The notes under the pieces: generated by a model
The model's input: the letters and a program-made list of their open reading frames with translations, nothing else
What the model was told of the DNA's origin: nothing
Database searches by the model: none
Position numbers and translations under genes: made by a program
In this document: piece after piece, positions 28,190 through 39,482 of the stretch
Numbering within the stretch: position 1 is the stretch's first letter
How the letters are laid out: every line of letters begins with the position of its first letter
Assembly (NCBI RefSeq): GCF_007860095.1
Contig: NZ_SJPT01000002.1
Coordinates: forward strand, 186,001 to 250,000
Source: Novipirellula galeiformis
GTDB lineage: Bacteria; Planctomycetota; Planctomycetia; Pirellulales; Pirellulaceae
Length of the DNA stretch: 64,000 nucleotides
Direction: 5' to 3'

Positions 28190-28807
28190 TTACTCTTTTC
28201 CTTCCGCCTTAAGGTATTCAATCACTTTGGCTTCGAGGACCGACGCACGCATCCCCACTTGCTTCGCTTCGTTGCGAGCCTCTTCCACACTCAGATTGTC
28301 TTCCATGACACGGTAAGCCATCCATACCGGGCCCACGCGTCCGGCGACCGCGCAGTGCACCAACACCCCGTTGTCCTCCTTTGCGGCGCGCATCAATGCC
28401 AGACTCTCCTCGAGCATTTTCGGGGTCAAATCGTCCGGTCCTTGGATGGGAAGTTGAACAAAACGGAGCCCCGCAGCCTCGGCAACCTGTTTTTCGTCCC
28501 AGTCCAACTCAATCGTCTCACGCAATGAGAGCACCGTGGTAATCCCATGCTGCTTTAACTTGGCAAACATCGCTTGATCGGGCTGCCCCGCCAACACAAT
28601 GTTGCCAAAGCGATGCACACGTTCTGTATTGCCCAGTTCGTATGCTTCGAGTTTCACAGGGGCTGGTGAAGTTTTAGACGTGCTTGTCGACGCCCCCTCC
28701 TGGGCGAGCAAACGCGTGCATGGTGAGAGTCCAAGAACGGATAGCGTGAAGGTCACGATCGCAGCAAGGCATCCAAAGCGAACTGTCATGATCTTTAATT
28801 TGCTCAT
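28190..28807 (-). CDS. Exported DUF442-type phosphatase-like protein
   Basis: A 205-residue protein from the ATG at 28807. A Sec signal (VRFGCLAAIVTFTLSVLG) is followed by a dual-specificity phosphatase-like fold: NIVLAGQPDQAMFAKLKQHG and TTVLSLRETIELDWDE, then the P-loop VHCAVAGRVGPVW. The P-loop is C-x4-R, as in the DUF442/beta-lactamase hydrolase-like group, rather than the C-x5-R of classical tyrosine phosphatases; the usual SGxR is here VAGR. The substrate is unknown; periplasmic location is unusual for a phosphatase of this fold. It is monocistronic. Confidence 0.8.
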   Translation of the reverse strand: MSKLKIMTVRFGCLAAIVTFTLSVLGLSPCTRLLAQEGASTSTSKTSPAPVKLEAYELGNTERVHRFGNIVLAGQPDQAMFAKLKQHGITTVLSLRETIELDWDEKQVAEAAGLRFVQLPIQGPDDLTPKMLEESLALMRAAKEDNGVLVHCAVAGRVGPVWMAYRVMEDNLSVEEARNEAKQVGMRASVLEAKVIEYLKAEGKE

Positions 28808-29030
28808 CAAAGTAGGGGGGATGCGAAATCAAATTCACTCGGCTTCGCGGGGCTTTTAAAATTCGGGGCTTTCAAATTTCGTGGTGATCAAGTTGAGGCG
28901 ACATGATCGCTCACAGCCAATCACCGTGTAGCATATCAGGAATTCCAGTGGGGTTCGATTGTCGATCGCAGCCATGCCAGCGGAGCGATATCCCAAACCG
29001 TCTGCGCGTCCCCGTTTGGGTAGCCGCGTT

Positions 29031-29699
29031 TCAGTAGCCGCGTTTCAAGACCCAGCGGGTGGCATGTTGGACTAATTGGGTGGCATTGTCGACGTTCAAT
29101 TTACTTTTGATGTTCTCTTTGTGTCGTTCGATCGTCTTGACGCTGAGGAACAACGCGTCGGCGATTTCACGCGTGCTGCGGCCATTTCCAATCTGTTCAA
29201 AGACCTGTAATTCACGATTGGTCAACGATTCGAGACCTTGCATTGTCGCGGGCTTGGGATCACCTAGGCGGCGACGAATGAGGTTCTTTGTCACCGATTT
29301 GCTGAAGAAAAAGTCGCCACCCAGCAACGCGTGAATTCCTTCGATCAGCTTCTCGGGGGCTTCCTCTTTGTTGATATAGCCATGCGCTCCGGCGGCCAAC
29401 ACACGGTGTGCGAACAAGCTCTCGTCGTGGGCCGAGATCACCAAGATTTTGATCGCAGGACAGATTTTGATTGCCGATTGAACCAAGTCCATGCCGCTGC
29501 CCTCTTTGAGCGTCAGATCGACGATGACAAGGTCGGGGCTTTCACGAGAAAGAAACATGATTCCCTCTTGCTCGTTGCTGGCCAATCCACACACTTCCAT
29601 GTCGGGTTCTTGATTGATCAGTTGGGAATAACCAAATCGGACGATGCCGTGATCGTCGACGACGACAATTCGGGCGGCGGGGGAGATCGTTTGATTCAT
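29031..29699 (-). CDS. LuxR/NarL-type response regulator
   Basis: A 222-residue protein with an N-terminal receiver domain (VVVDDHG with Asp15-Asp16; phosphoacceptor Asp61 in DLVIVDLTLKEG; SAHDE and the conserved lysine in HGYINKEE) and a C-terminal LuxR helix-turn-helix (LTNRELQVFEQIGNGRSTREIADALFLSVKTIERH...). The ATG at 29699 overlaps the kinase stop codon as ATGA, so the two are translationally coupled and almost certainly form a pair. The regulator should bind DNA as a dimer when phosphorylated; its targets are unknown. Confidence 0.95.
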   Translation of the reverse strand: MNQTISPAARIVVVDDHGIVRFGYSQLINQEPDMEVCGLASNEQEGIMFLSRESPDLVIVDLTLKEGSGMDLVQSAIKICPAIKILVISAHDESLFAHRVLAAGAHGYINKEEAPEKLIEGIHALLGGDFFFSKSVTKNLIRRRLGDPKPATMQGLESLTNRELQVFEQIGNGRSTREIADALFLSVKTIERHKENIKSKLNVDNATQLVQHATRWVLKRGY

Positions 29700-31630
29700 G
29701 ATTGGCAATTCCTTTGGGGGATGGTCAAGGTGACGCTCGTTCCCTGGTTGGGAGCCGTGTCGATTTTTAATTCTCCACCGATCGACTCAGCGCGATATCG
29801 CATGATTCGCAGCCCGTGGGCGCTGGTTTTGTGTGCAGGTCCGGTGAAGGTGAACCCGACGCCGTCGTCTCGGACCGTCATCGCAAAATGATCCATGCTG
29901 CGAAGCTCGATCACAATTTGATTTGCTTGGGCATGCTTGATTGTATTATGGACCGCTTCACATGCGATTTGATAGATCACCAGTGCAACGGAATCGTTGC
30001 ACACGAATCCTTCGTCGAATCGATGATGATCAACGTCGCATTTCAAATGGAAACGATCCACCGTATCGGCGGCAAGCCCGTGTAGCGTCGGTAGTAGATC
30101 AACAGACTCGATCGGGCTTGGCAGCAGACCATTGGACAGTCGGCGTACGTCTTGGTGAGCCTGTTTCAAAATATCACTGAGGTGTTTGACATTTTCAAAT
30201 TGAGACTTCATCTGCTCCGGTAGGCTGCGACGAAGGGTTTCGGCAATCAATGCTCCCCCGGTCAATTGCTGGGCAATCCCATCATGCAGCTCACGACCGA
30301 TGCGTTGCTGTTCAGCGATCGCGATATTAGCGGCGATTGCTTCGAGCCGCTTGCGGGCGATCAGATGGCCAAGTTGAATTCCGATGTGGGGTAAGATTTC
30401 TAAGAAAAAGTGATTTCGGGAGAGGACGTGATCGGAAAGGAATTCCATGACGGCAACGATCTCGCCGTCGACGGTGATGGGAAACGCGATTGCGGCGCGA
30501 AAGCCGACGTCGGAGATGCGGTTTAAGAGCGGATCGAGAGTGGCATCTTCGACCCACTGAGGTTCATTGGTCTGCAGCACCCTCCCGATCATTCCTTGGC
30601 CGCTCGCAAAGCGTAGGCCGCCGCGAGTCTGCTGGAAATCGCCTAGCTTTTGGAGCGATAACGCAGCGTCCTTTCGCACATGCCATAATCCCGTGCTTTG
30701 CATCTGCCCGCTATCGTCGTCCGCCAAACGCCACACATGCCCGACCAACCATCCGTTGTACTGAGTGATTTGATCGAGCGTCACTCGCATTGCCATCTCG
30801 ACCGTTTTGGCTTCATTGGCGATACGGGTGATGTGTTGCAGAAGCTCGCGTAATTCGTTTCGTTGGATTGCTTGCTGTTCAAGCGTTTTGTTCAGCTCGC
30901 GGGTACTTTGCTCAGCCGCCTTGCGTTCGGTAATGTCGAGCAGCATGCCCACCGCAAAACGTGGTTGCAACTTCCCCTCTTCGTCAATCGCAAGCACTTT
31001 GCCACGATTTTCGAACCAGCGTATTTCGCCATTGCTGCGCACGATTCGAAACTCGGCGTGATAACCGTCCTCGTCGCATTCACGCAGCGACTTGTTGAGA
31101 TGGCTTTGGATGAAGGCGCGGTCTTCGGGGTGGATGAGCTGTCGTAGTCGCTCCAGGTTAAGCGGCTCATCAGGTCCCACTTGAACGATCGATCTCAATT
31201 CTTTGGACCAATAAATCTCTTCGCTCACCACGTCATAGGAGTACCAGCCCAATTTCGCCGCCGTCGATGCGGCACGTAGTTTCTCTTCGGCTTGTCGCAG
31301 TTCCGTTTCCACCCGCTTGCGTTCGCCGATATCAACGCAGTGCATGACGATGGTGCCATCTTCCAACGTGCAACCCGATTGGATCATCCAAAATTGTGAG
31401 CCGTCCTTACATAAGCACTTCATCTCATACGGCCCCACGTGGCCGCTTCGACGCACCGTCTCAAACAACGCCTCCATCGGCTTGCTCCACTCCGGCGGTG
31501 TCAATCGTGATGACGTCAGCGATCGTGTTTGCACGTCCTCGCGGGAGTAACTGGTTCGCTGGAGAAACCAATCGTTGCAATCCAAGAGCGTTGCATCGGC
31601 CGCGTAGAACAGAATGCCAATACCGTCCAC
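29696..31630 (-). CDS. PAS-PAS-GAF sensor histidine kinase (HisKA_3), start unclear
   Basis: A 644-residue kinase as read from a GTG at 31630. Domains in order: PAS (about 1-100), PAS with PAC (about 120-240), a coiled-coil linker, GAF (about 265-405), then a HisKA_3 dimerisation domain with phosphoacceptor His in ERGRELHDG-like RIGRELHDGIAQQL, and a HATPase with VIYQIACEAVHNTIKHA, VRDDGVGFTF and GLRIMRYRAESIGG. It has no membrane segment. The GTG lies inside the first PAS helix: the same frame continues upstream as SEERFRRAL, the usual start of a PAS domain, to a TGA at 31673, with no ATG. This suggests the kinase was once the C-terminal part of the CheB-CheR protein. It feeds the LuxR regulator downstream. 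Confidence 0.9.
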   Translation of the reverse strand: MDGIGILFYAADATLLDCNDWFLQRTSYSREDVQTRSLTSSRLTPPEWSKPMEALFETVRRSGHVGPYEMKCLCKDGSQFWMIQSGCTLEDGTIVMHCVDIGERKRVETELRQAEEKLRAASTAAKLGWYSYDVVSEEIYWSKELRSIVQVGPDEPLNLERLRQLIHPEDRAFIQSHLNKSLRECDEDGYHAEFRIVRSNGEIRWFENRGKVLAIDEEGKLQPRFAVGMLLDITERKAAEQSTRELNKTLEQQAIQRNELRELLQHITRIANEAKTVEMAMRVTLDQITQYNGWLVGHVWRLADDDSGQMQSTGLWHVRKDAALSLQKLGDFQQTRGGLRFASGQGMIGRVLQTNEPQWVEDATLDPLLNRISDVGFRAAIAFPITVDGEIVAVMEFLSDHVLSRNHFFLEILPHIGIQLGHLIARKRLEAIAANIAIAEQQRIGRELHDGIAQQLTGGALIAETLRRSLPEQMKSQFENVKHLSDILKQAHQDVRRLSNGLLPSPIESVDLLPTLHGLAADTVDRFHLKCDVDHHRFDEGFVCNDSVALVIYQIACEAVHNTIKHAQANQIVIELRSMDHFAMTVRDDGVGFTFTGPAHKTSAHGLRIMRYRAESIGGELKIDTAPNQGTSVTLTIPQRNCQS

Positions 31631-31632
31631 AC

Positions 31633-34425
31633 TCAGCGCGCGACGAAAACGTTCCTCGCTCGCAATTGTTCCTCACGTTGTTTTCTCGCTGTAATGTCGA
31701 TCATTGTCACGACAACGCCTCCCACCTGATCCCCATTCAACCGGTAGGGAATGACGCGACGCACGAAACAGCGGCCGTCACGACAATCGACTTCGTTTTC
31801 GATCGGCTGCAATTCGGCAAGCACTCGCTCACATTCCGCGGTCAAACTCTCATCTTGAAAATCGTGCGCGAGTTCACTCAGTGGTCGCCCCTTATCCGTA
31901 TCTCGAATCCGCACCAACGACTGAGCCGCTGGCGTGAACCAGCGGATGGTCAAGTCGATACCGAGGCAGATCGTGGGGATCTCGGTTGCGGAAATTAAGT
32001 TCTCCAAATCGGCATGCTTTCTTTCCAACTCCTCGACTTTGGAGCCTAACAATTGGTTGGTCGTTGCCAGTTCCTCGTTGAGCGATTGCAACTCCTCTTT
32101 GCTGGTTTCAAGCTCTTCGTTCGTGCTTTGCAATTCCTCATTGACACTCATCACCTCTTCATTGGAAGCCTTGTACTCTTCATGCGAGATTTCGAATTGT
32201 TCCAAAGAGCTTTGCAGTTCATCTTTCACTGCCGATAACTCATCCTCCAAATGGCGAATCGTCGACTCCGCCTCGGCGCTGAAGGGGCCCAGTACAGGCT
32301 CGTCGGGATAAACCGAGCTGGACGATGGCGGCGGCGAAGCTGAGGGTTCTTGTTCAGCGGCATTGTCGGTTGGCTCACGGAAAATGATGAGCGCAAGCGT
32401 TTGCTCGTTTTCATCGTCGTGAAGAGGGCGAACTTCGATGTCCAATTCCCCCGAGTTCGTTCCCTGGGCCAGCCGACACGACAGTCGCACCGGTTGCTGC
32501 TTTGCGAACGACCTTTGCACCGCTTCCTGCAAACGGGATCTCAAGTCACGCCGCAGTTTGCTGAGCAAATCATCGTTAGGGACCCCGGAGGTGTGTAAGA
32601 GAAACGGATTGACGTCGCCGTTGATATAAAGGATGCGCCAGTGGCGATCGATTAAGATCGCGCGAGGAGCCACGAGGTCGAATAATTTGTGCTGAATCAA
32701 ATGGGTCACTTTCTGATCGCGCCGGGGCAACGAGGATAAACGAGGAGGATTGCGGCGCACGCTGCCAGTGGAGATTGGTAAGGGAATGCCTTCGTCCGGA
32801 ATGGAGCCGATTCTACGAAAAATTCGCTGTTTCTTCTTTACCGTCTCGAACCGGTTCTGTTGACGTCCCACCGTTTCCGCGGTGCCCAGCATCAAGTAAC
32901 CAGATTTCCGGAGCACAAAGTGAAACAACTTGATGACCTTCTGTTGCGTTTCTGGATTGAGGTAGATCAAAACATTGCGACAACAAACCAAGTCGAGTTG
33001 GGAAAACGGAGGGTCGGAAATCAAATTCTGGTCCGCAAAAATCACCGTCTCACGCAGCGTTTTATTGACTCGGAATGGACCGTCACCCTCCTCCGAATCG
33101 AAGTAACGCTGGAGTCGCTCTGCGGAGACGTCGCTTTGGATGCTGCGAGGGTAACGCCCGATCCGAGCGTACTGAAGCGCGGCTTTGTCAATATCCGACG
33201 CGAATACCTGCACGGTACAACGCTTGTGTTGGGTGCGAAGTTCATCGAGGATCAGCATCGCGACCGTGTACGCTTCTTCCCCAGTGGCACAACCGGGAAC
33301 CCAAACACGAACGGCATTGTCCTTTATGATGGCGTCGTCGTTGGAGTCCAGGTTGTCCGTTTTGTTGGCCACGATCTTGTGGATCACATTGGTTGACAAT
33401 TCATCCCAGGCTTCGCGATCACGAAAAAAGTCGGTGACGCTAATCAGCAAGTCCTTCGCCAGTGCTGTGATCTCGTCGGGATTCTGTTTGAGATAGGCCA
33501 AATAGGTCTCGATATCCTCAATCTGATGCAGACACATTCGTCGCCGCGTTCGCCGTACCAGCGTGGCGTCTTTGTAGTTGCGAAAGTCGTGATTGTCGTG
33601 GTCTCGCAGCAGGGAGATCATCGCGTACAGCGAGTCGGACGATATCGCTGGCGTTGGAGCGTCCTGTTTCGTGGAGGATACTTGTTTCGTGGGTGAGTTT
33701 GGTTGCGGCGCTAGCGGCGTGCTCGGCTGAAGGTACGAATGCTGAGCGAAACGGGCAATCGCCGCTGGAATTTCCTGGGGGGATAGCACTCGATCGACCA
33801 CTCCCGATGCAATCGCACTCTCGGGCATCCCTGCAAATTCAGCAGTGCTCGGTTCTTGGACGATCACGAAACCGCCTGCTTCCTTGATCGCCTTGGCACC
33901 GCGTGTTCCGTCGCTGCCGGTTCCCGACAGGATGACGCCGATGGCGCACCGCGTTTGGTCCTTGGCAAGTGATTTGAAAAACAGGTCGACCGCGACCGGA
34001 GTGGTCCGCCCCCCTTCTATTTCGGTTAATTGCAACCGACCTTCCTGTATCCCCAGATAGCTTCCCGGCGAGATGATGTAGACGCAGTTGGGCCGCACCA
34101 AAGTCTCTTCGTGAACTTGACGCACCTCCATGGTCGTATACTTCGACAGTAGGGAGGGGGCGAGACTCGGCTTGTCACGGGCTAGATGCAGGATGATGAC
34201 AATGGCGAATTCCGGACGCTCGGGCATCGCTTCGAGCAGTTGACGCAAGGCGTCCAAACCGCCTGCCGACGCACCGACCCCCACAATCGGAAAATGATCA
34301 GCCTGTTGCGTTTCCGCCGTGGCGATGGCGATGGCGGAGGCGGTTGGGGATTCGTCCTGGCTACCCGGCGGTAACGAGTCGTCAGCGGATGCCGATGAAG
34401 TCTTTTTCTTTCGTTTTCTCGTCAC
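31633..34425 (-). CDS. CheB-CheR-PAS fusion receptor-like protein
   Basis: A 930-residue protein from a GTG (34425). Residues about 45-230 are a CheB methylesterase domain (VGVGASAGGLDALRQLL, ILSGTGSDGTRGAKAIKEAGG, DRVLSPQEIP) with no receiver domain in front. Residues about 265-535 are a CheR methyltransferase (LISVTDFFRDREAW, VWVPGCATGEEAYTVAM, VFASDIDKAALQYAR, DLVCCRNVLIYLNPETQ). A PAS-like segment, a long Glu-rich coiled coil (NEELQSTNEELETSKEELQS) and a PAS domain ending at ITARKQREEQLRA follow. Such CheB-CheR-PAS proteins are atypical sensors rather than chemotaxis adaptors. The end of the frame runs 14 codons past the PAS linker and stops where the kinase begins. Confidence 0.92.
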   Translation of the reverse strand: MTRKRKKKTSSASADDSLPPGSQDESPTASAIAIATAETQQADHFPIVGVGASAGGLDALRQLLEAMPERPEFAIVIILHLARDKPSLAPSLLSKYTTMEVRQVHEETLVRPNCVYIISPGSYLGIQEGRLQLTEIEGGRTTPVAVDLFFKSLAKDQTRCAIGVILSGTGSDGTRGAKAIKEAGGFVIVQEPSTAEFAGMPESAIASGVVDRVLSPQEIPAAIARFAQHSYLQPSTPLAPQPNSPTKQVSSTKQDAPTPAISSDSLYAMISLLRDHDNHDFRNYKDATLVRRTRRRMCLHQIEDIETYLAYLKQNPDEITALAKDLLISVTDFFRDREAWDELSTNVIHKIVANKTDNLDSNDDAIIKDNAVRVWVPGCATGEEAYTVAMLILDELRTQHKRCTVQVFASDIDKAALQYARIGRYPRSIQSDVSAERLQRYFDSEEGDGPFRVNKTLRETVIFADQNLISDPPFSQLDLVCCRNVLIYLNPETQQKVIKLFHFVLRKSGYLMLGTAETVGRQQNRFETVKKKQRIFRRIGSIPDEGIPLPISTGSVRRNPPRLSSLPRRDQKVTHLIQHKLFDLVAPRAILIDRHWRILYINGDVNPFLLHTSGVPNDDLLSKLRRDLRSRLQEAVQRSFAKQQPVRLSCRLAQGTNSGELDIEVRPLHDDENEQTLALIIFREPTDNAAEQEPSASPPPSSSSVYPDEPVLGPFSAEAESTIRHLEDELSAVKDELQSSLEQFEISHEEYKASNEEVMSVNEELQSTNEELETSKEELQSLNEELATTNQLLGSKVEELERKHADLENLISATEIPTICLGIDLTIRWFTPAAQSLVRIRDTDKGRPLSELAHDFQDESLTAECERVLAELQPIENEVDCRDGRCFVRRVIPYRLNGDQVGGVVVTMIDITARKQREEQLRARNVFVAR

Positions 34426-35205
34426 GACGATTCCAAGTAGGAGCTAATCAGAGGACGCAAATCCCGGTTCAAAATTCTGGTTTAACGCTGTTCCCTTTGA
34501 TTCGGACCATTCGGGATGGCGTGTCGCCAGCGGGGGGGCGACTCGATCGCGTCTTTCCTCGTGCATGATTCTACCATCCTGCGCGCGAACCCGGATGAGG
34601 CATCTGACGACTGGTTATTGCTGCAATCGGTTTGCTAACAACGGATTACCTGAGCGAATTTGAAAGCGAGTGCATGCCTTAACCCTCCGCCTTCGGTTGG
34701 AACGTGCGCTATTGCCGTATTCGCAGCAAATCGCAACCCCAAGCGTTAGGCGAGCGACCGGGGCAAGATTGAGACTCCCTCGCTGGCGCTGCGGTTAGGA
34801 AAACGTGCAACCTCTAAACTTGACTCGCCGGGTTGTGAATAGTCTAGGTGTGGGGCACCGTTCTCGATTGCCAAGAGAGTTACACGCACTGGGGGATTCC
34901 CCCAGAGTGAGATTGGGGATTCTCTACTATTGCCAGATAAGCGAGATGGTCAAAATCGGGAGATCAATGAGGACTTTTCTATTGAATTTGGCAAATACCT
35001 CGCCCTCAATCGCATGTAAGTGGAGCCTTACCTGCGATCCAATGAAATGGATTGCAACTACCCCAGTTCGCCAATTGAACGAATTCATTGACCTAGAGTG
35101 AACGCGAGCTAAATTCAAGTCGGATTCAATCGAGAGTCTCGAGCGATTCGCGACATTTGTCCGGAGCAAGATCAAGGCCCCGGAATCAACCACAGGAGGT
35201 TAATT
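34426..35205. other. Non-coding gap between divergent signalling genes
   Basis: About 780 bp without a supported gene. It holds a REP-like element (34735-34795) and a perfect small hairpin CTGGGGG-ATT-CCCCCAG at 34889-34905. It should contain the promoters of the CheB-CheR operon and of the two small plus-strand genes. Confidence 0.5.
34735..34795. repeat. REP-like palindromic element
   Basis: Left arm AACCCCAAGCGTTAGGCGAGCGACC and right arm CCCTCGCTGGCGCTGCGGTT, imperfectly complementary. It belongs to the family with the GCGTCAGCGAGGGACCGA core, here divergent. Confidence 0.5.
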
Positions 35206-35424
35206 GTGTATACCGACGATAGTAAAGAATGTCTAAGTGGCGGTGCCATTGATGATTTGCATCGTGTTGCAGCAGCGTTGGAAGCACTGGAACTCCAGAT
35301 GAGCGTGCTCAGTGTAAAGATGCATTACGATCAATCACCCCATTCCCCACAGGCGATGGAGTTGACTCGCAAGGTCGCCGAGATTCACCGACAGCTTGAC
35401 AATGTGCTGACGTTTGGGAGTTAG
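35206..35424 (+). CDS. Small hypothetical helical protein
   Basis: A 72-residue protein starting at a GTG (35206) preceded by a perfect AGGAGG seven bases upstream, which makes it a convincing translation start. The sequence is cytoplasmic and mostly helical (LHRVAAALEALELQMSVLSV, MELTRKVAEIHRQLDNVL), probably a two-helix hairpin. I recognise no family. The GAF-like gene starts 29 bp after its stop, so the two are likely co-transcribed, divergently from the CheB-CheR/kinase operon. A role with that signalling system is only a positional guess. Confidence 0.65.
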   Translation: MYTDDSKECLSGGAIDDLHRVAAALEALELQMSVLSVKMHYDQSPHSPQAMELTRKVAEIHRQLDNVLTFGS

Positions 35425-35453
35425 GTCTTCGCGTCGCAAAGGAAATTTTGGTT

Positions 35454-35954
35454 ATGGAACTGCGAGATCAAAGACTCACAAGTGTACTGGATGATCTTTT
35501 GTGCATGCAAAACGACCTTTCGATGCTTGGAGTGAATCAGACGCACGATGACGAGAGTCGTCGCGTTTTCAAATGGGTTACTGACTCGATGCATGCACGC
35601 AACGGTTCATTGTCCCTAGAGCACGAATTGGGAACGATCGTCGAAATGATCGTGCCGGAATTTTCGGACTCGTGCTGCATCGACTATTTTGCGTCTAGTG
35701 GATGCACACGACGTTTTGCTGCTTATGGGAGTGATGACTTGCTGTTGGCGACACCGATCCGGTCGCTGACGCTCGAGTTGGATCCCTCGCGACGATTCAA
35801 GGTCGCGTTAGCCGATGGCGTTAAGTTTTTGGGGGTAATCGAATTCACGCGTTCGCCCGATCACCGTTCTTTCTCGTCGGTTGAACGACTTGGCGCAAGC
35901 GTTTTTGCCAGCCGCATCTCGGCGAATATAACGAACGTGCTAAGCTCGCTTTAA
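35454..35954 (+). CDS. GAF-like sensory domain protein
   Basis: A 166-residue protein. The ATG at 35454 is chosen, with AGGAAA upstream; the TTG two codons earlier is an alternative. Residues about 50-165 resemble a lone GAF domain of the kind found in two-component proteins: EHELGTIVEMIVPEFSDSCCIDYF, then a short strand set, LADGVKFLGVIEFTRS and FSSVERLGASVFASRISANI. The paired cysteines (SCC) could be ligand or redox sites. There is no output domain, so it may act as a partner of another protein. It follows the 72-residue gene by 29 bp. Confidence 0.7.
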   Translation: MELRDQRLTSVLDDLLCMQNDLSMLGVNQTHDDESRRVFKWVTDSMHARNGSLSLEHELGTIVEMIVPEFSDSCCIDYFASSGCTRRFAAYGSDDLLLATPIRSLTLELDPSRRFKVALADGVKFLGVIEFTRSPDHRSFSSVERLGASVFASRISANITNVLSSL

Positions 35955-36650
35955 GATGCGTCGGCGTTTCCGCGAAAGGTCCGCAAAAGGATTGCGAATG
36001 GATGGAGTTCCGCTTGCATCCCTTCGGTAATCCAAGGCAAGCCAACTCCTGCTGAGCTAAGTGGGGTAATCCCGCTTCACGTAACGGACCAACGATGCAA
36101 CGGGCCCAACGATGGCAACGGGACTACGATGGCAATGGGCCTACGATGCAACGGGCCCGCTGGTAAGGCAATCGGCGGTCGTCACGGTAACGCCAATACC
36201 AATCACCAATAGGTTTGATAGCGCAAACGAGTTGGGCGGACGTGTTGTGGTTGGAGTGACTGCGGGGCTGGGCTTGCTCGTCTGCCGCCGAGGAAGACAC
36301 GGAGGAAGATGCCGAGTGACGACACGCGATGGCGGCCGCGACCGATCCCTTTGTCGCCCAAACGGCGGCCCCTTCCGGTGGGTGGTGCGTCGGTGCGGCG
36401 TTTGCTTGGCGGGCGGTTTGCGCTTGGCGGGGAGGAGGGGGCGCTGCGGCGTAAATCGTTAAAGAGGGGCGTGATGGATGGGAAAGACGCGATCAGGAAC
36501 CGATGGCCAGAATTGGGCTCAGAGTATAACCTGCATCCCCCGGCAACGAAGATCCCGCGTGATTGTGGGCTCGACGATAATGAGTCCTACGATGACGGGA
36601 TTGTGAACCGGTTCGCCACTGCAAATTCCCCACGCCCATCCTAGTTTCCC
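35955..36650. other. Non-coding gap with tandem repeat
   Basis: About 700 bp. It contains a four-copy 17-bp repeat at 36093-36160 and a GC-rich, G-heavy segment around 36290-36470. Open frames here are arginine/glycine-rich and look like chance. Confidence 0.45.
36093..36160. repeat. 17-bp tandem repeat, 4 diverged copies
   Basis: Units CGATGCAACGGGCCCAA, CGATGGCAACGGGACTA, CGATGGCAATGGGCCTA and CGATGCAACGGGCCCGC lie end to end. Length is constant while the bases drift. Confidence 0.88.
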
Positions 36651-39482
36651 GTGCCAAACTCTGACCCCGCCTGCAACGAATTTGACGCCCAACCGTCTCG
36701 CTACGTGGTCGGGATCGACTTGGGGACCACGAATTGTGCACTTTGCTTTATCGACACCGCAGCGACGTCATGGTCCACCGAGACGTTTCGAGTCCCCCAA
36801 TGGATCGATTTTGGTCAATGTGAGAGTCGTGAGACGTTACCGTCGTTTCACTATGAATTGACAAGCGACGAACGTTCCGCCGGCTACCGTTTGCCATGGC
36901 AAGACGACGTTTCGCCCACCTGCGTTGGGGTGTTGGCACGCGACGCAGGGCACCGTCATCCGGGGCGTCGGGCGGCATCCGCGAAAAGTTGGTTGTCACA
37001 TGAAGGGGTCGACCGCACCGCCGACCTGCTGCCATGGCACGGCGATGCCGAAGTGACGCGTTTGTCGCCGGTCGATGCATCGGCACGTTATCTGGATCAT
37101 TTGCGTTCGGCTTGGGATCACGCTCACCCTGACTTTCCACTGGCCGACCAAGACGTGGTGATTACTCTGCCAGCGTCATTTGACGAGGTTGCTCGTGAGT
37201 TGACCGTCGCAGCAGCGAAGCAGGCAGGGTTGTCGCGTGTCTATCTGATCGAAGAACCCCAAGCCGCCTTCTATGCTTGGATCGATCGGCAAGGGGATGA
37301 ATGGCAAAAAAGTGTTCAGCCCGGACAGCTGATTCTTGTTTGCGACATCGGGGGTGGGACCACTGATTTGACGTTGATCCGAGTTCGCGCGGCAGGTGAA
37401 TCAGGCGATCAGATCCAATTCCATCGCGTCGCAGTGGGGGATCACTTGATCCTCGGTGGCGACAACTTGGATCTCGCGATCGCCAAACTCGCCGAATCCA
37501 AAATCACGGCGTCAGAGGAGGGAAGTACGCTATCGCCGAGTCAATGGGACCGCTTGGTTCAAGTATCACGCACCGTCAAAGAAACGATGCTCACGACCGA
37601 TCGGCCGGATCAATATACGATCAACCTGCCCTCGGAAGGCTCGCGATTGGTCGGCGGCAGCATTCAAGTACAGATCGCGGCCGAAGAGATCGATGCGGTA
37701 TTGATGGATGGTTTTTTCCCTGAAGTCGATTTGAACAGTACAGCGATCGCTGGCGAGAGTGGCTTTCAAGAATTTGGTTTGCCGTATGCAGCCGATGCGG
37801 CGATCACACGTCACTTGGCTGAGTTTCTCAATACGCATCGCCGCACTGGACTCGATGAACAGGACGAGAACGATGCGGACCGTCCCGCTTTGGTGCTGTT
37901 TAACGGAGGCGTGATGTCGGCCCCGGCGGTGCGTGAACGGATTGTCACGATGTTGTCGCGTTGGTTCGCAGGCGATGATGTCGATTGGAAACCCCGCGTA
38001 CTCGATTCACCTCGGCTCGATTTGGCCGTCGCTCAAGGTGCCGCCTATTACGCTGGCGTGCGGCGCGGTCATGGGGTACGGATCGCTGCGAACTTGGGAC
38101 GATCCTACTACATGCAAGTCGCCGACCACCCGCCGCAAGGGTTGTGCTTGATTCCGGGAACCGCCGAAGCGGGCCAGCGTTTTCGCGCCGAGGGGCACCC
38201 CCTGGAATTGCAAGTTGGCTCGCCCGTGCAGTTTCCCCTGTGGGTTAGCAGCACGCGATTGGCCGATTCGGTGGGCGAATTGATTGAGATGGATCGTAAG
38301 GAAGCTTCGCCATTGCCGCCCATCTGTACAGCATTAGTCCAGGGCAAGCGACGCCAAAACGAAACGATCAATGTGGTCATCGAAGCCGAGTTGAGTGAGA
38401 TCGGAACCGTCGGTCTGTTTTGTGTGGATACCCAATCGAGCAAACGTTGGCGATTGGAATTCGATATCCGTAGCACGCTTGAAACCGATCGTGACGCTCA
38501 TACCGGAACCGGGGAAGCGGCCGGGATTGTCGATTCCGAAACGGTCGCCGAGTGTGCCGCAGCGATGGAAGGTGTGTTTGGAGATCGCAGTGGCGCGGGT
38601 TCACTGAAACCCAATCAATTGATCAAGCGATTGCAAACGATTACCGAAACGCATCGCAACGCATGGCCTCCGTCGCTGCTCCGCGACCAGTGGCAATTCT
38701 TGTTTGACCACCAACAAGGACGTCGTAAATCGGCGCAACACGAATCGCGTTGGCTGAACCATGTCGGTTTCTGTTTGCGGCCTGGATACGGTGTCGCGGT
38801 CGACGATTGGCGAGTATCGCAAGTTTGGCGAACGGTTCACAACAAATTGGCGTTCCCCGCAGCGTCATCGCGCACCGAATCGATGATTTTGTGGCGGCGT
38901 ATTGCGGGTGGATTGACCGCCGGTCAACAAGCACAACTCGCGGCCCCTTGGATCAGTGCCTTGAAGAACGGGACGCGAAAGATCGAAGCTCACGAGGCGT
39001 CCGAAGCATGGCGGTTGATCGGATCGCTCGAGCGGTTGGCGGTCCACGACAAGGTGACACTTGGTCGAGTCGCCATACAGGCTTTGTCGCAAAAGAAGCA
39101 CGAGAAGATTCGTCACGCGTTGCTATGGGCGATCGGGCGTCTGGGGAGCCGGCAACCACTTTACGGTCCGCTCAATGGCTGCGTTGGCTCGAGCGAGGCC
39201 GCTGGCTGGGCCGAGTCGTTGATGCGGTTTGACCGCAGCGTTGATGCGGGGGCTCATGACTCCGTGTGGACGTTGGCGCTTGTGCAAATCGTACGAATGA
39301 CCGGCGATCGCTATCGAGATCTGCCCGTGGCCATTCGCAACGAGGTGATCGATTATCTGGTGGCTCGATCGGCACCGACGCACTCGATCGACTTGTTGAA
39401 AAATGTGGGGCGTTTGCAAAGCGAAGAGGAAGCCGCGATCTTTGGCGATTCATTGCCGTTGGGAATTCGCTTGGTGAGATAG
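36651..39482 (+). CDS. Hsp70-family protein with C-terminal DUF3731-like region
   Basis: A 943-residue protein from a GTG (36651). The N-terminal ATPase domain has all the actin-fold landmarks of Hsp70: VVGIDLGTTNCALCFID (phosphate 1), VVITLPASFDEVARELT, LIEEPQAAFYAW, LVCDIGGGTTDLTLI (phosphate 2), GGDNLDLAIAKL and VLFNGGVMSAPAVRERI (adenosine). The substrate-binding part is not DnaK-like. From about residue 640 the sequence (LNHVGFCLRPGYGVAVDDWRV) resembles the DUF3731 tail found on a divergent Hsp70 branch. That branch often sits with a second Hsp70 and a DUF2760 gene; neither is next to it here. A chaperone role is inferred. A 14-bp tandem repeat begins in the last codons and covers the stop. 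Confidence 0.88.
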   Translation: MPNSDPACNEFDAQPSRYVVGIDLGTTNCALCFIDTAATSWSTETFRVPQWIDFGQCESRETLPSFHYELTSDERSAGYRLPWQDDVSPTCVGVLARDAGHRHPGRRAASAKSWLSHEGVDRTADLLPWHGDAEVTRLSPVDASARYLDHLRSAWDHAHPDFPLADQDVVITLPASFDEVARELTVAAAKQAGLSRVYLIEEPQAAFYAWIDRQGDEWQKSVQPGQLILVCDIGGGTTDLTLIRVRAAGESGDQIQFHRVAVGDHLILGGDNLDLAIAKLAESKITASEEGSTLSPSQWDRLVQVSRTVKETMLTTDRPDQYTINLPSEGSRLVGGSIQVQIAAEEIDAVLMDGFFPEVDLNSTAIAGESGFQEFGLPYAADAAITRHLAEFLNTHRRTGLDEQDENDADRPALVLFNGGVMSAPAVRERIVTMLSRWFAGDDVDWKPRVLDSPRLDLAVAQGAAYYAGVRRGHGVRIAANLGRSYYMQVADHPPQGLCLIPGTAEAGQRFRAEGHPLELQVGSPVQFPLWVSSTRLADSVGELIEMDRKEASPLPPICTALVQGKRRQNETINVVIEAELSEIGTVGLFCVDTQSSKRWRLEFDIRSTLETDRDAHTGTGEAAGIVDSETVAECAAAMEGVFGDRSGAGSLKPNQLIKRLQTITETHRNAWPPSLLRDQWQFLFDHQQGRRKSAQHESRWLNHVGFCLRPGYGVAVDDWRVSQVWRTVHNKLAFPAASSRTESMILWRRIAGGLTAGQQAQLAAPWISALKNGTRKIEAHEASEAWRLIGSLERLAVHDKVTLGRVAIQALSQKKHEKIRHALLWAIGRLGSRQPLYGPLNGCVGSSEAAGWAESLMRFDRSVDAGAHDSVWTLALVQIVRMTGDRYRDLPVAIRNEVIDYLVARSAPTHSIDLLKNVGRLQSEEEAAIFGDSLPLGIRLVR

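Follow-up and report, generated by a model that had tools for sequence, protein, structure and literature searches.

A CheB-CheR-kinase hybrid receptor gene of Novipirellula galeiformis, probably split by the recent loss of four bases

A 64,000-nucleotide stretch of the genome of Novipirellula galeiformis, hereafter the window, contains a pair of overlapping reading frames in which chemotaxis-type domains are followed by a histidine kinase. The question raised by this locus is whether the pair represents two genes or the pieces of one. Judged from comparison with related genomes, the two frames are most probably a single hybrid receptor gene that was divided by a recent four-base deletion.

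The features concerned are collected in Table 1, with positions counted from the first base of the window. In the N-terminal frame, Pfam matches above the cut-offs identify CheB, CheR_N, CheR and PAS domains (PF01339, PF03705, PF01739 and PF13596, respectively). The frame continues to ...KQREEQLRA and then through seven more codons, RNVFVAR, to a TGA at 31635–31633. The kinase frame is limited upstream by a TGA at 31675–31673; from its opening it reads GTIASEERFRRALSVDG, and the stretch after this TGA can be quoted as ...SEERFRRALSVDGIG... Its ATG, GTG and TTG codons are, in order, GTG 31630, TTG 31585 and GTG 31534, with the first ATG at 31477, inside the first PAS domain. GTG 31630–31628 lies two bases past the stop of the first frame and is residue 15 of the kinase open frame, in which the Pfam PAS_9 match begins at residue 19. 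No Shine-Dalgarno-like sequence is found upstream of this codon at the usual spacing. The layout thus bears out an earlier note on this DNA, which had described a CheB-CheR frame ending in REEQLRA plus seven codons and a stop, a kinase with no ATG and only a GTG, and a TGA at 31673 closing the kinase frame.

Table 1. Features of the receptor locus in the window
Feature	Position	Strand	Basis or remark
Response regulator, receiver and LuxR-type DNA-binding domain	29031..29699	-	ATG overlaps kinase stop codon
PAS - PAS - GAF - HisKA_3 - HATPase_c open frame	29696..31672	-	Pfam; C-terminal part of split receptor
Overlap of the two frames, 40 bases with stop codon counted	31633..31672	-	
CheB - CheR_N - CheR - PAS frame	31633..34425	-	930 aa, GTG start; N-terminal part of split receptor
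GCGA-GCGA tandem repeat, site of four missing bases relative to both congeners	31656..31663	-	DNA alignment

The frame is broken in an interdomain linker. From GTG 34425 to the stop at 29696 there are 4730 bases, and the addition of four makes a multiple of three, equivalent to about 1577 residues. The window lacks the one continuous frame of a CheB-CheR-PAS-HisKA_3 hybrid receptor, which is present in the genomes G001, G002 and G193. It also lacks what marks a two-gene receptor/kinase pair, namely a kinase gene equipped with a start codon and a ribosome-binding site of its own.

Within the genus, three genomes were available, the window's own (G000) included, so that the congeners are G001 and G002 only. 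In both, the receptor is one uninterrupted frame (1585 codons in G002 and 1576 in G001). The kinase occurs at full length once per genome in all three, and no second match is found in the window's genome at E <= 1e-20. Identity to the window over the kinase half is 58% in G002 and 56% in G001. Synteny with the window holds in G002 for the genes that flank the receptor on either side and for its response regulator; the contig of G001 is too short for such a comparison. In the more distant G193, CheB through kinase again occupies one frame, of 1446 codons, with an intact regulator adjoining. The homologues joined as one protein that the earlier note had proposed to look for are therefore found in both congeners and in G193.

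Beyond the genus, a family survey at 1e-60 recovered the kinase half in 11 of 241 genomes, the window's own included, and ten regions from eight genomes outside the genus were inspected. CheB through kinase is encoded in a single frame in G193, G020, G064 and G237. The kinase of G109 and three kinases of G009 have no CheB-CheR in the same frame, with two of the three G009 frames touching contig ends. A distant homologue in G226 (locus L167, contig C9 8000-15631; 1915-6991) is arranged as two overlapping genes, one for CheB-CheR-PAS and one for GAF-kinase, the second with its own ATG. The frame relation of this pair differs from that of the window, and neither PAS query from the window matched the N-terminal portion of the kinase protein. 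Two separate genes with an ATG start for the kinase and the same frame relation, which the earlier note had named as evidence against a split, are absent in both congeners. A search of 396 genomes from the larger group, at the level of the order, gave eight with a match at 1e-75; judged by frame length only, the matches include frames of 1756 (G299), 1565 (G310) and 810 (G307) codons. A first contig search with the kinase query returned no relative. A second, with an alignment query, returned 36 loci, among which only Rhodopirellula maiorica SM1 exceeded 32% identity.

The nature of the break is apparent from a DNA alignment of the junction in the three congeners, in which, besides substitutions, there is a single internal gap; it is four bases long, affects only the window and lies at GCGA-GCGA. 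At the repeat position, the sequence of G002 is GCGAGCGAACGA, with two GCGA units followed by ACGA, and that of G001 is GCGATCAAGTGA, which is without a GCGA repeat there. On the assumption of four missing bases, the linker aligns with that of the relatives without a difference in length; with one missing base, it is one residue short. A single-base deletion at the junction is thus ruled out by the alignment gap and the shortened linker. The earlier description of the second half as "one base out of frame" holds for the frames, which differ by one, but not for the loss relative to the relatives, which is of four bases. Slipped-strand replication is a classical route to the loss of one short tandem-repeat unit. 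The ancestor would have carried three GCGA units, and the loss is explained most simply by replication slippage. Across 449 kb of this genome, GCGA is never repeated three times in a row.

Since both congeners have one frame and four bases are missing at the junction repeat, the ancestral gene would have been a single CheB-CheR-PAS-PAS-PAS-GAF-HisKA_3 kinase receptor of about 1577 residues, with the response regulator directly after it. The four bases would have been lost from the GCGA tandem repeat by slipped-strand replication, such that the first protein would now terminate just past its PAS domain. It is possible, if doubtful, that the kinase half is still weakly produced by reinitiation at GTG 31630, with the PAS core kept and the linker helix lost. 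The deletion appears to be real in cells and recent, with loss of the full-length receptor; both halves have remained open without accumulating extra changes, which argues for a recent split. Among the options of the earlier note, a recently split receptor is accordingly the one best supported by the single-frame congeners and the four-base gap.

Whether the assembly is prone to frameshifts was judged from the rest of the genome. Frameshifts were sought by tblastn, and a frame was scorable if its best piece had at least 45% identity and there was either 70% query coverage or a two-frame split. When frames of G002 were compared with 449 kb of the window's genome, 178 had matches and 64 were scorable, and this receptor was the only split detected by a scan that is blind to frameshifts with short tails. 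The other 63 scorable frames represent 39 distinct places and 49 kb of alignment after removal of overlapping and antisense frames. In the reverse scan, 118 frames had matches and none of the 58 scorable (41 distinct places) was split. A sequencing or assembly error, with the gene intact in the organism, is conceivable for a draft assembly of 30 contigs (PMC12910023 gives 40 contigs for the N. galeiformis Pla52o genome). It is nonetheless unlikely, as four bases are gone at a tandem repeat rather than one from a homopolymer, and the lack of another frameshift in 39 distinct comparable places makes poor assembly improbable.

The age of the break was approached through relative-rate counts, in which changes unique to G000 are set against those unique to a congener, for each half. 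With G193 as the outgroup, the CheB-CheR half gave 73 for G000 vs 86 for G001, and 65 vs 100 for G002. The corresponding counts for the kinase half were 33 vs 38 and 33 vs 37. Other outgroups agree with G193; for instance, G029 gave 81 vs 88 (G001) and 74 vs 101 (G002) for the CheB-CheR half. An old pseudogene is unsupported by these counts, in which the window's copy has no excess of changes. This lack of acceleration implies either a recent break or one that arose as an artefact, in the culture that was sequenced or in the assembly.

A break in a linker would also be expected of a split that is tolerated and functional, which is a counterpoint to an accidental one. The two proteins could then be stable products, with termination at the TGA at 31635–31633 followed by reinitiation at GTG 31630 to make the kinase. 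The domains retained in both frames, the closeness of the GTG to the stop, the start of the PAS_9 match just after it, and the two-gene arrangement in G226 all fit such an organization. However, the GTG has no Shine-Dalgarno-like sequence before it, the receptor is fused in both congeners, and the G226 pair differs in frame relation and in the N-terminal part of its kinase, leaving a functional split improbable. A frameshift that joins the two halves, the other biological option of the earlier note, fares worse. Relative to the first frame, the second lies at -1 across the 40-base overlap, as programmed -1 ribosomal frameshifting into a fused protein would demand, but of the 14 heptamers read in frame within the overlap not one fits X-XXY-YYZ, and its longest homopolymer is TTTT. 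Furthermore, the RNA past the junction folds in an ordinary way (z -0.38; 69 of 200 shuffled sequences were as stable or more so), a protein joined by a -1 shift would have a linker shorter by one residue, and the frame does not change in G001, G002 and G193. Programmed frameshifting is thus very unlikely indeed.

If the gene is split by deletion, consequences may extend to the regulator. The regulator begins with an ATG at 29699 that shares bases with the kinase stop (ATGA, 29696–29699), an arrangement also seen in G001, G002 and G193 and absent in G029, and the overlap probably couples regulator translation to that of the kinase. Ribosomes would stop at 31633, so that production of the kinase would depend on their reinitiating at GTG 31630 or on starts further downstream, and the regulator could be affected by the frameshift too. 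Downstream of the regulator, window positions 28190–28810 encode a protein in which Pfam PF22785 (2.8e-08) marks a domain resembling dual-specificity/tyrosine phosphatases; this protein has a counterpart in the syntenic region of G002. No Rfam match reaches the gathering score in 28500–36700. For annotation, the lesson is that the two gene calls at this locus are most likely pieces of one receptor that is intact in sister species, and that neither is to be taken for a natural stand-alone gene.

A second broken copy of the system occurs in G029, a single-contig genome from another genus of the family. In its orthologous receptor and response regulator (together in locus L168, contig C1 1094000-1106000, 3271-8286), the frame shifts within the GAF domain of the former and in a T7 tract of the latter. 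According to tblastn, both genes lack a single base. In 406 kb of G029, splits were seen in one of 47 scorable G002 queries (the regulator) and in two of 12 scorable G000 queries (regulator and receptor), with no others, the covered queries being 25 and 9 distinct places, respectively. These separate frameshifts, the only splits in that region, raise the prospect that small indels repeatedly remove, or reversibly switch on and off, a two-component system that serves as a contingency or culture-adaptive locus in planctomycetes of this family. Such a role is quite improbable, as the GCGA repeat is very short, G001, G002 and G193 are intact, and the changes in G029 are of single bases, one of them in a homopolymer, which may be sequencing errors. 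With two GCGA units only, the locus also lacks the long simple repeat tract of phase-variable genes. The G029 breaks offer a modest hint of relaxed selection, switching being less likely, and the receptor/regulator system may be dispensable, although two cases are too few for more. If it is true that the system has been repeatedly broken across genera, this signaling pathway would be dispensable or selected against in culture.

A literature search of titles and abstract openings found no publication on this receptor locus. The domain order is that of the CheB-CheR-PAS-histidine kinase hybrid receptors in this planctomycete family, the difference here being the division of the gene between two frames. 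Among 27 loci chosen, out of 46 places listed, for their match to a CheB-CheR-kinase model, the longest frames contain CheB, CheR_N, CheR and PAS in 27 of 27 by Pfam, HisKA_3 in ten and HisKA in six, several of these frames being cut by the end of the locus. Fusion of CheB and CheR in one protein is described for RC1_3878 of Rhodospirillum centenum (PMC2890560), in a passage that mentions no attached kinase; the likeness is one of description. A further counterpart is the receptor of Rhodopirellula (Novipirellula) maiorica SM1 on NZ_ANOG01000875, the reverse complement of which is the G001 contig C874. It has the same domain order and 56% identity over the kinase half and, unlike the split frames of the window, is one open frame of 1576 codons. 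Most likely, then, the N. galeiformis locus encodes a receptor of a known kind that was split by an ordinary recent mutation rather than by a new mechanism.
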